64,000 nucleotides of DNA from a candidate division KSB3 bacterium (GTDB lineage Bacteria > Moduliflexota > Moduliflexia > Moduliflexales > Moduliflexaceae). A program made the position numbers and the translations under genes. The stretch is taken from NCBI GenBank assembly GCA_002748425.1, contig PDSJ01000021.1, forward strand, positions 55,467 through 119,466, read 5' to 3'. The notes under the pieces were generated by a model that worked only from the letters and a program-made list of their open reading frames with translations, ran no database searches and was not told the DNA's origin. Shown here one piece after another: positions 13,657 through 46,724 of this stretch (positions within the stretch are counted from its first letter, which is position 1; every line of letters begins with the position of its first letter).

Positions 13657-15660
13657 ATGAGATTACAAGAATATCTTTTTGAAGTCGCACCCAGGGCCCC
13701 GCTGTACGAACTTGCCAGACGAGGACTGATCCGTTCCCCGAATCCGCTGACCATTACTTACTCTGTGACGGCGGCCTGCCGCAGTCTTTGCAAAACCTGC
13801 AATATCGGACGGACATATTTGGAAAATCCAGAACGCGCCAAACGGGATCTTACGCTCGATGAGATCGAGAAAACCTTTCGACATCTGGGACATATCTACT
13901 TTTTCAACGTATCCGGCGGCGAGCCCTTTATGCGCATGGATCTTCCTGAGATTTGCCGTCTGGCCTTTATTCATCTCAAGCCCAGACTGATCAGCATTCC
14001 CACGAATTCCCTGGCTCCGAGAGCTATCGAGAAAAGCACATTGAAAATTCTTGACTATATGGAAGAACTGCTGCCTGATTCGGTATTTCTCTCGGTCAAG
14101 CCCTCCATTGACGGGGTCGGCGAAATGCACGACTACCTGCGCGGGATTAAAGGGAATTTTGTCAAACTGGAAGAAACGATCGATCGTCTGCTGGCGCTTC
14201 GCTCAAAAAATCCGAGACTCCATGTCGATCTCGGTTCCGTAATTTCCAATTTCAATCTCCACCACCTGCACGATTTGGAGGATTGGGTTCATCAGCGCGG
14301 CATTGAGGCCTATCGACATGAAATTGCGGAACAACGCGTGGAGTTTCATAATATCGGAGACCCGATCACCCCGTCTCCGGAAATCTATGAAAAACTGACC
14401 CTGGAATTTGCAGAGAAGATTGTGCGCAACATTAAAGAAAAGGGCTTTTTCACCAGAGTCACCGAAGCGATCCGTATCAGCTACTATCATGTTGCTGTCG
14501 AAATTCTCCGGCAGCGACGGCAGGTGACGCCCTGTTACGGTGGCCTGGCCAATATCCACATGGATCACGACGGCGAAATGTGGGCCTGCTGCATTCTTGG
14601 AGGCGAGCAGTCAATGGGCAATGTACGGGACTGGGACTACGATGTGCCGGCGCTTCTCAACTCAGAGCAAGCCAAAACAGTCAAAAAGTATATTGCCGAC
14701 GGCAACTGTGCCTGCCCCCTGGCCAGCCAATGGCTCAACAATGTGCTTCTAACGCCGCGCCACATGTTGCGAGTGCTCTATACGCTCTTTGTCCGCTTCC
14801 CCTTAGCCAAATCCTCTTCGAAAGAAAACAAGCCTGCACGAAAAATCAATCCGAAAGACGTTAAAGTCCGCATTCGGGGCACTTCCCCCCGCTCAGCCAT
14901 TGTACAGGAAAAGGCCGGGGTTATCAGCGCTCCGAAAAATGCTGATCTGCCGTTCTTTGAAATCGAAGCAGCCGAAACCGCAGCCCAGGACACTCCGCTC
15001 CCCTCAAAATTTCCCAAATCACTCCACCGCGTCGAATCGGTCCGCGATCTGACCTCCTCAACCTGTCTCTTACAAATCGAGAGAAACGGCCTGCACTTTA
15101 TCCCCGGCCAATATGCAATGCTCGGAAAACCCGGAAGTTTCGAGGCGCGCGAGTACACGATTTACTCAGGAGTGCAGGACACGCAGTCTTTGAAATTTCT
15201 GATTACAGTCGTGGATGGCGGCCGGGTCTCACAGGCCCTGCGCAACTGTGTGGCAGGAGAGATATTAGAACTGGAAGGCCCGATGGGCTATTTTCAGCTC
15301 GAGAAGCCCTCAGCCGCCAAAAAGCATTACTTTATTGCCACTGGCAGCGGAATCGCGCCTTTTCATGCTTTTACCCAAAGCGAAGCAGAACTCAATTTCA
15401 CCTTATTACACGGTGTGCGCTGGCTTGCTGATTGCTATCACAAGGACGACTATGACCCGCAGCGCTATATTTCCTGCGTCAGCCGCCAAAAAGGCGGCGA
15501 TTTTTACGGACGGGTCAGCGATTATCTGAAAACTCAGACACTGGCACCCGATGTCTGCTATTATCTCTGCGGTAACTGCGATATGATTTACGACGTCCAC
15601 GACATCCTCACAGAGAAGGGCGTGCCTCATAACCAGATCAAAACAGAGATCTTTTATTAA
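13657..15660 (+). CDS. Radical SAM/SPASM-like protein fused to a C-terminal ferredoxin-NADP reductase-like FAD/NAD(P)-binding module
   Basis: 667 aa. N-terminal CRSLCKTC (CxxxCxxC) and VSGGEPFMR; later Cys-rich TPCYGG...WACCILGGEQ...NCACPL. C-terminal FIPGQYAMLGKP, AREYTIYSG, GPMGYFQL, FIATGSGIAPFHAF, YYLCGNCDMIYDV match FNR-type reductases. One uninterrupted frame. Confidence 0.88.
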   Translation: MRLQEYLFEVAPRAPLYELARRGLIRSPNPLTITYSVTAACRSLCKTCNIGRTYLENPERAKRDLTLDEIEKTFRHLGHIYFFNVSGGEPFMRMDLPEICRLAFIHLKPRLISIPTNSLAPRAIEKSTLKILDYMEELLPDSVFLSVKPSIDGVGEMHDYLRGIKGNFVKLEETIDRLLALRSKNPRLHVDLGSVISNFNLHHLHDLEDWVHQRGIEAYRHEIAEQRVEFHNIGDPITPSPEIYEKLTLEFAEKIVRNIKEKGFFTRVTEAIRISYYHVAVEILRQRRQVTPCYGGLANIHMDHDGEMWACCILGGEQSMGNVRDWDYDVPALLNSEQAKTVKKYIADGNCACPLASQWLNNVLLTPRHMLRVLYTLFVRFPLAKSSSKENKPARKINPKDVKVRIRGTSPRSAIVQEKAGVISAPKNADLPFFEIEAAETAAQDTPLPSKFPKSLHRVESVRDLTSSTCLLQIERNGLHFIPGQYAMLGKPGSFEAREYTIYSGVQDTQSLKFLITVVDGGRVSQALRNCVAGEILELEGPMGYFQLEKPSAAKKHYFIATGSGIAPFHAFTQSEAELNFTLLHGVRWLADCYHKDDYDPQRYISCVSRQKGGDFYGRVSDYLKTQTLAPDVCYYLCGNCDMIYDVHDILTEKGVPHNQIKTEIFY

Positions 15661-44938: not shown

Positions 44939-45694
44939 ATGAAGACAATGTATTTGCTGCCGAATTTATTCACGCTGGGTAACATCTTTCTTGGATTTTA
45001 CTCGATCGTCTCAGCAATTGATGGGAAGGACTCGCAAGCTGCGTATCTTGTCATCATTGCTGCATTTTTCGACGTCTTCGACGGGGCAATCGCCCGAGTG
45101 ACCAACTCAACCAGTAAATTCGGTGTGGAGTTTGACTCTCTGGCCGATTTGGTGTCTTTTGGCGTTGCCCCTGGGGTCCTGGCCTATCTTTGGATATTGA
45201 AACCGCTCGGTCGTGTCGGATGGCTGGGAGCCTTTTTATTCCTGGTCTGCGGAGCCTTGAGGCTGGCGCGTTTTAACGTCCAGGTGAAAACGGTCAGCAG
45301 CGAACGCTTTATCGGTTTACCGATTCCCTGCGCTGCCGGTATGCTCGTCTCCACAGTCATTTTCATCGAGCACTATACCGATCTGATCGGCCCTAAAGAA
45401 CAGTACCGATTCCCGGTGGCTGCATTGGTGTATCTGCTTGGAATCCTGATGGTCAGCAACATTCGGTATATCAGCTCAAAGGCTGTAAGATTGCGGGGAA
45501 AAAGTCCGTTCAAAGTCATGGTGATCGCGTCACTCATTTTGATCACCATTGCCCTCAAACCTGAAGTGACTTTTTTCACCGTAGGAGTCCTATACGTCCT
45601 GTTCGGACTGCTCGAAGCCATTCCAGGATTTCCAACGTTCTTTACACCACGCCTGAAAGATGACGCGGACAAAGATGAGGAACTCGATTCCTGA
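44939..45694 (+). CDS. pssA: CDP-diacylglycerol-serine O-phosphatidyltransferase
   Basis: 251 aa; LLPNLFTLGNIFLGFYSIV, FFDVFDGAIARVTNSTSKFGVEFDSLADLVSFGVAPGVLAY (CDP-alcohol phosphatidyltransferase motif). Confidence 0.95.
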   Translation: MKTMYLLPNLFTLGNIFLGFYSIVSAIDGKDSQAAYLVIIAAFFDVFDGAIARVTNSTSKFGVEFDSLADLVSFGVAPGVLAYLWILKPLGRVGWLGAFLFLVCGALRLARFNVQVKTVSSERFIGLPIPCAAGMLVSTVIFIEHYTDLIGPKEQYRFPVAALVYLLGILMVSNIRYISSKAVRLRGKSPFKVMVIASLILITIALKPEVTFFTVGVLYVLFGLLEAIPGFPTFFTPRLKDDADKDEELDS

Positions 45695-46724
45695 TACGGC
45701 CCTGAAAAAAGAGGCAATGCTTTATCGTTCGAGCGGTGCCGCAACGCTTAGCTGTTTTCTGTGCTCTCATCGCTGTGCGATCCGGCCCGGAGGAGTGGGA
45801 CTATGCGGAGTTCGGACACATCAGGACGGACGATTGTATACACTGGTGTACGATAAAGTGATCGCCGCGCATGTCGATCCCATCGAGAAGAAACCGCTTC
45901 ACCATTTTCTTCCCGGCTCTTTCTCCTTTTCCGTCGCAACGGTTGGCTGTAATTTTCACTGTTTCCACTGCCAGAATCATGACATCGCCCAAATCCCGAA
46001 AACCCGGGGCACTGCTTCCTCTCTTCCTGGGCATCCTGTCAGCCCTGAAGACATCGTGAACAGTGCCGCGAGAAACGGCTGTAAATCGATCGCATATACC
46101 TATACCGAGCCGACGATCTATTTTGAGCTAGCCTATGATACTGCCCGCCTGGCTCATGAGCGAGGAATAAAAAATGTCTTTGTCACGAATGGCTATATGA
46201 CCGAGGAAGCCCTGGAGACGATTCAGCCTTATCTGGATGCGGCGAATGTCGATCTCAAGGGCTATTGCGACAGCACGTATCGAACGGTCTGTGGCGGAAG
46301 GCTGGAGCCGGTCAAGGAGAGTATTCAACGCATGGTTCAACTCGGCATTTGGGTGGAAGTAACCACCTTAGTCATTCCGATGCATAACGAGTCGGAAACC
46401 GAGTTGCGGGAAATCGCGAAATTTCTAAAAGGAGTGAGCCCTGAAATTCCATGGCATGTCAGCGCCTTTCATCCTCACTATAAATTCACCCATCTTCCGG
46501 CAACCTCATCCGCCTCAATCGCCCGGGCGGTCGTTCTCGGCAAAGAGGCCGGGTTGAAGTACGTCTACAGTGGCAATATCTTCGAAAAGCGCTCGACGAA
46601 CACCTACTGCCCGTCCTGTGGAAAGCTTTTGATTCATCGCTCAGGGTTTCATCTCCTCGAAAATCAGCTTATGGACGGCAAGTGCCCTCTATGCAGCACA
46701 AAAATCGGGGGAATTTTTAGCTAG
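45660..46724 (+). CDS. amrS: AmmeMemoRadiSam system radical SAM enzyme
   Basis: CFLCSHRCAIRPGGVGLCGVR, GCNFHCFHCQNHDIAQ (CxxxCxxC), YTYTEPTIYFE, C-terminal CPSCGKLLIHR...CPLC. Start may lie inside pssA (about 35-nt overlap). Confidence 0.9.
   Translation: MTRTKMRNSIPDTALKKEAMLYRSSGAATLSCFLCSHRCAIRPGGVGLCGVRTHQDGRLYTLVYDKVIAAHVDPIEKKPLHHFLPGSFSFSVATVGCNFHCFHCQNHDIAQIPKTRGTASSLPGHPVSPEDIVNSAARNGCKSIAYTYTEPTIYFELAYDTARLAHERGIKNVFVTNGYMTEEALETIQPYLDAANVDLKGYCDSTYRTVCGGRLEPVKESIQRMVQLGIWVEVTTLVIPMHNESETELREIAKFLKGVSPEIPWHVSAFHPHYKFTHLPATSSASIARAVVLGKEAGLKYVYSGNIFEKRSTNTYCPSCGKLLIHRSGFHLLENQLMDGKCPLCSTKIGGIFS

Follow-up and report, generated by a model that had tools for sequence, protein, structure and literature searches.

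A single gene in the 64,000-nucleotide stretch analysed here (the window), from a candidate division KSB3 bacterium, encodes a radical SAM enzyme, a linker and a C-terminal FAD/NAD(P) reductase of the FNR type in one chain. The reductase module falls in a clade whose sampled members are all linked to radical SAM genes, and it is probably a dedicated NAD(P)H-to-radical-SAM reductase, here attached covalently to the enzyme that it would reduce. More tentatively, this mainly Verrucomicrobiota clade may comprise direct, dedicated donors to radical SAM enzymes that work without flavodoxin or ferredoxin and were twice fused into self-sufficient enzymes. The electron source of radical SAM enzymes in vivo is described as elusive (PMC11994313), and laboratory work relies on dithionite or on the flavodoxin pair from E. 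coli (PMC10470005, PMC11994313). The one-chain enzyme and the clade of matched separate reductases provide donor–enzyme pairs open to testing, including one with MiaB, whose product ms2i6A is easily measured, and the window protein itself might serve as a radical SAM catalyst that runs on NAD(P)H in a single chain.

The sequence-only reading had described one uninterrupted frame with an N-terminal radical SAM CxxxCxxC motif, a Cys-rich region able to bind an auxiliary cluster, a linker and a C-terminal FAD/NAD(P) reductase, and all of these parts were recovered. The 667-residue frame runs from an ATG at 13657 to a stop codon at 15660 on the plus strand, and the domain order, which that reading had proposed to verify, is Radical_SAM, a sub-threshold SPASM, FAD_binding_6 and NAD_binding_1 in Pfam (Table 1). 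Radical_SAM (PF04055) matched residues 35–210 with 40.5 bits (cut-off 29.5). SPASM (PF13186) matched residues 293–353 below its curated cut-off (16.8 against 21.5 bits), which is passed by relatives in other fusions and in Fermentibacterota. In an alignment with 73 relatives, C41, C45 and C48, the cysteines C293, C311, C351 and C353, and the GGE motif G87-G88-E89-P90 are invariant, while position 312 is Cys in 59 and Ala in 14. Judged from sequence, the invariant cysteines would suffice to ligate the SAM cluster plus a single auxiliary cluster in a twitch-like arrangement, short of the seven-Cys SPASM pattern. None of the NCBIfam radical SAM equivalogs scored above its cut-off, the best being NF033640 (54 bits against 170) and TIGR04053 (45.2 against 395).

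Table 1. Features of the fused gene (positions in the window)
Feature	Positions	Strand	Evidence
Fused gene: radical SAM enzyme, linker and FNR module, 667 aa	13657..15660	+	Open frame; Pfam domains; full-length homologue L021; AlphaFold2 model
Radical SAM catalytic domain, residues 1-385, ending in an auxiliary-cluster region (twitch or truncated SPASM)	13657..14811	+	PF04055 above cut-off; identity to relatives
CRSLCKTC, residues 41-48, ligands of the SAM-binding [4Fe-4S] cluster	13777..13800	+	All 73 relatives carry C41, C45 and C48
Residues 293-353, with invariant Cys at 293, 311, 351 and 353 that could ligate a single auxiliary Fe-S cluster	14533..14715	+	Conservation; weak PF13186 match
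Tail/linker, residues 386-454	14812..15018	+	tblastn to L022/L023; pLDDT; tails of orthologues
FNR module, residues 455-667	15019..15657	+	PF00970 and PF00175 above cut-off; conservation; solved-structure matches; tree

The C-terminal half has the characters of the FNR superfamily: both Pfam domains (PF00970, residues 472–547, 42.3 bits against a cut-off of 21.1; PF00175, residues 559–648, 23.3 against 22), the RxYS/T and GxGIxP motifs and the FNR fold. Its FAD motif is REYT (498–501), its NAD(P) motifs are GSGIAP (563–568) and CGN (638–640), and it ends in the aromatic residues FY. The AlphaFold2 model is confident for the radical SAM part and very confident for the FNR part, whereas residues 388–450 mostly have pLDDT below 50, so that the linker is largely disordered in the model; with a pTM of 0.63, the placement of the two domains relative to each other is not confidently predicted. 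The solved structures closest to the FNR part are ferredoxin/flavodoxin-NADP reductases (Foldseek E 1.5e-16, target-normalised TM about 0.75), with the Fpr-type enzymes 5thx, 6rr3, 1fdr and 8dos among the matches.

The distribution of related reductases carries most of the functional argument. The query P0001 was searched in 390 Verrucomicrobiota genomes, the only phylum sampled in depth, which were drafts and metagenome-assembled; up to three candidates were scored per genome. Matches were picked by similarity rather than neighbourhood, and the neighbours were identified independently of the search. The top matches were separate proteins of about 220 aa with 38–47% identity. In the FNR-domain tree (n = 88), the window FNR lies within a 21-member clade (support 93/84). 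A first tree (n = 86) had given 19 members (96/91) with one type-B fusion, described below, as a long branch, and the clade persisted (93/84) after the relatives of that fusion were added.

All 21 sampled members of the clade are linked to a radical SAM protein. Eleven lie directly upstream of miaB, for which a representative neighbour passed the MiaB equivalog cut-off (374 against 355), and five directly upstream of a BchE/HpnJ-like B12-type radical SAM gene; the gap to the radical SAM gene ranges from about −61 to +131 bp, on the same strand. The remaining members are two type-A fusions, including the window protein, and three type-B proteins, placing fusions in five genomes. In type B, a clade FNR is joined to a different radical SAM/SPASM family, only 24–26% identical to that of the window. 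This fusion is full length in G256 and G1110, whereas in G423 it is split over two contigs, one reaching from the radical SAM part to the FAD domain and the other with the end of the FNR; one type-B entry, L173, is a fragment at a contig end. The type-B radical SAM protein has unfused orthologues (60–63% identity) within the same order, indicating that the type-A and type-B fusions arose independently. Looking for the same fusion in other genomes, as the sequence-only reading had advised, thus yielded a second type-A protein (L021) and an independent fusion of the same reductase clade. In total, the clade is linked to four different radical SAM families: miaB, the B12-type gene, fusion A and fusion B.

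Chance adjacency accounts poorly for this pattern. Radical SAM matches numbered 329 in the 53.7 Mb of 12 of these genomes, or about 0.7% of genes assuming 0.9 genes per kb, and the chance of radical SAM adjacency per gene is accordingly about 0.7%. Four distinct kinds of linkage would arise by chance with a probability of about 2e-9. Fisher's exact test comparing the 19-member clade with the other FNRs retrieved by the same procedure, 16 of 67 of which were radical SAM-linked, gave 7e-10, although related rows are not independent.

FNRs outside the clade have neighbours of several kinds. A separate, fully supported clade (100/100; L201, L202, L205, L212, L217, L221, L226) lies directly upstream of rlmN in Verrucomicrobiota, visibly so in seven of eight cases with one at a contig end, and miaE is divergent on the opposite strand in most. 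Seven further FNRs are followed by a twitch-type radical SAM gene, frequently within an ArsM-like operon; in L105:5612-10309, L106:4431-8813, L215 and L218, an ArsM-like methyltransferase gene, the FNR gene and an overlapping twitch-type radical SAM gene form a conserved operon, three with a cellulose-synthase-like glycosyltransferase, and the product is possibly an arsenic-containing metabolite. In L166:2472-4213, a SPASM-type radical SAM gene lies directly upstream of an other-clade FNR on the same strand, unfused. Paralogues beside a PduO-type cobalamin adenosyltransferase and/or MurB (L188, L199, L203, L206, L213, L219, L224, L225) are possible cob(II)alamin reductases, further subclades adjoin ApbE or TrhO/PanE genes, and in L230 a related FNR from outside the radical SAM clade lies beside cysteine desulfurase-like and IscU-like genes. 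The ApbE, PduO/MurB and TrhO/PanE neighbourhoods indicate that the wider family has several jobs; within it, the clade of the window protein is the radical SAM one.

What MiaB, the B12-type enzyme and the two SPASM-like families have in common is a need for reduction, which most simply explains why one reductase clade is attached to all of them. We therefore propose the following scheme. NAD(P)H would pass a hydride to FAD in the C-terminal module, and the reduced FAD would deliver single electrons to the radical SAM part, either directly to the SAM-binding [4Fe-4S] cluster or via the putative auxiliary cluster (C293, C311, C351, C353); the reduced cluster would then cleave SAM and begin the radical reaction. 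The flexible linker of about 60 residues might allow the reductase to move towards and away from the catalytic part, in the manner of self-sufficient P450s. In Verrucomicrobiota, FNRs of the clade would serve MiaB and the B12-type enzyme as separate proteins, and the same reductase would have been fused twice, to different radical SAM enzymes. We infer the direction and route of the electrons, as well as the dispensability of flavodoxin and ferredoxin. The complete linkage of the clade and the two independent fusions considerably strengthen the earlier suggestion that the protein could be self-sufficient and driven by NAD(P)H. The other possibility raised in the sequence-only reading, a flavin-coupled oxidase or reductase that acts around the product, is less likely.

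An intermediate carrier is the first alternative. The FNR might reduce a small flavodoxin or ferredoxin, which would in turn reduce the radical SAM part, with fusion or operon merely co-localising the chain. The nearest solved structures, being ferredoxin/flavodoxin-NADP reductases, fit this, and the genome of the window encodes a 176-aa flavodoxin. With a potential of about −320 mV, NAD(P)H is only weakly reducing towards the radical SAM cluster, which is usually more negative, and the FNR module itself lacks a one-electron relay domain; a flavodoxin or ferredoxin might therefore still act in between. However, among 12 Verrucomicrobiota genomes with an FNR–radical SAM pair, four have no flavodoxin match and in another four the only matches lie in long frames (about 400 aa or more), in a survey confined to flavodoxins and to genomes that may be incomplete. 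Radical SAM turnover can be supported by NADPH and FMN alone (PMC10470005), and NADPH is the electron source of HutW, where heme has been implicated in passing the electrons on (PMC10035031). These precedents, that of TYW1 (below) and the sparse flavodoxins make carrier-free direct transfer plausible, and we regard an intermediate carrier as unlikely. Separately, short flavodoxin genes occur within about 1 kb of a radical SAM gene at G223:C7:222235, G348:C55:89436 and G437:C66:18376, possibly a second kind of dedicated donor pairing.

Electrons might instead flow the other way, from a substrate radical through the auxiliary cluster and FAD to NAD(P)+, or cycle between the SAM and auxiliary clusters, a scheme that has been suggested for SPASM dehydrogenases. 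The four invariant auxiliary-cluster cysteines and the SPASM-like regions in the radical SAM proteins of both fusions would suit such a role, but MiaB and the B12-type enzyme, with which clade members are also paired, lack a SPASM domain, and the only need common to all of these partners is reduction; we thus consider an oxidative function improbable as well. That the FNR does other work, such as reducing the radical product or free flavin, with its radical SAM linkage incidental, is very improbable: the FNR subclades beside ApbE, PduO adenosyltransferase/MurB and TrhO/PanE that would favour this are other clades, whereas that of the window is linked to four radical SAM families. Finally, the source genome is a draft assembly of 72 contigs, but we give virtually no credence to two genes having been joined by a sequencing or assembly artefact, given a full-length homologue in another metagenome-assembled genome (MAG) and phylum and purifying selection at the codon level in both halves.

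This homologue, L021, is a 649-aa protein from a Candidatus Cloacimonadota MAG with 62–64% identity over residues 1–667. Between the two genes, synonymous sites are saturated, and differences in the radical SAM part amount to 0.60 at codon position 3 against 0.23 and 0.13 at positions 1 and 2, those in the FNR part to 0.69 against 0.40 and 0.30, and those in the linker to 0.66 against 0.55 and 0.47. The third-position excess in both domains indicates that both halves are kept by selection, while the linker is weakly conserved between the two type-A fusions (34%). The independent homologue and the codon pattern rule out an assembly or frameshift artefact, one of the possibilities that the sequence-only reading had named as fatal to its proposal.

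The type-A fusion is rare. The radical SAM half was scanned against one genome per species (85,462 species), and the fusion was found in two genomes: among the four genomes of the small phylum of the window, only in the window's own, and among the 125 genomes of the L021 phylum, only in that of L021, although 118 of these contain a homologue above threshold, nearly always unfused, of about 360 aa and about 32–40% identity. A rare gene with 64% identity common to two phyla suggests horizontal transfer. Residues 1–385 of the window protein are 76% identical to the other fusion, and 44% and 37% to unfused relatives.

The fusion appears to have arisen from an unfused protein with a tail. In the radical SAM tree, the two type-A fusions group together (99), nested among unfused radical SAM proteins, and are adjoined by two Verrucomicrobiota proteins (support 100 for all four). 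Those two and L024 are 63–68% identical, unfused and end at 435–437 aa. The unfused proteins of about 435 aa have a conserved C-terminal tail, for example KINPADVKVSIKGTSKRAAIVMHKLGTIP, and the first part of the window protein's linker matches this tail of the Verrucomicrobiota orthologues (tblastn, L022/L023), indicating that the FNR was added behind a pre-existing tail.

The fused gene stands alone between two minus-strand genes and has no operon partners within the window, so its own neighbourhood is uninformative on the substrate. A second, ordinary-looking radical SAM gene in the window (45660–46724) is AmrS-like by reading. The clusters of unfused relatives contain a family-4-like glycosyltransferase (47 loci), an SDR/epimerase (41), a methyltransferase-like protein (20) and a polysaccharide flippase (17), among others. 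From these surface-glycan genes, we would guess, with low confidence, that a surface (lipid- or nucleotide-linked) glycan or glycolipid is the likeliest kind of substrate. In Fermentibacterota (L084, L088, L091, L093, L095, L096, L098, L100), the same radical SAM family carries an LPG_synthase_TM (PF03706) membrane domain fused at its N-terminus (about 701 aa), and these genes adjoin a conserved membrane-protein gene.

We found no report of a radical SAM–FNR fusion in the open-access literature, with subscription papers outside the scope of the search. Together with the NCBIfam result, this agrees with the sequence-only reading, which had not recognised the architecture as a characterised family. 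The unfused radical SAM proteins of the glycan clusters belong to the same radical SAM family (41–68% identical) but have no reductase and measure about 375 aa, or about 435 aa with the tail. BenC/MmoC oxygenase reductases are the best named-family matches of the FNR half; these possess a [2Fe-2S] ferredoxin domain and serve oxygenases, whereas Pfam found no such domain in the 667-aa protein, and assignment to this type was rejected on that ground and on score (86.2 bits against 430 and 71.9 against 500). The E. coli Fpr/FldA pair has the same presumed job, and the Fpr fold is common to the window FNR (1fdr, 8dos, 5thx), but Fpr and FldA are separate proteins, whereas the window reductase is attached to its enzyme and no flavodoxin is encoded with it. 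Self-sufficient P450s of the BM3 type likewise carry the reductase on the same polypeptide as the catalytic domain, joined to it by a flexible linker, an analogy already drawn for radical SAM enzymes (PMC10035031). P450 BM3 is a heme monooxygenase with FMN and FAD domains, while only a FAD/NAD(P) module is seen in the window protein, to which a BM3-like self-sufficient layout would nonetheless fit on sequence grounds.

The closest precedent is the eukaryotic tRNA-Phe 4-demethylwyosine synthase TYW1, in which a flavin redox domain forms part of a radical SAM enzyme and for which self-sufficiency has been proposed (PMC10035031, PMC9186531). TYW1 belongs to a different radical SAM family and acts on a different substrate, and its flavodoxin-like FMN domain is N-terminal, whereas the window protein has a C-terminal FAD/NAD(P)H FNR and no fused flavodoxin/FMN domain of the TYW1 type by Pfam. 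The general principle, a flavin domain built into a radical SAM enzyme, is therefore already known from TYW1; what is new here is the fusion to a FAD/NAD(P)H reductase and the reductase clade to which it belongs.
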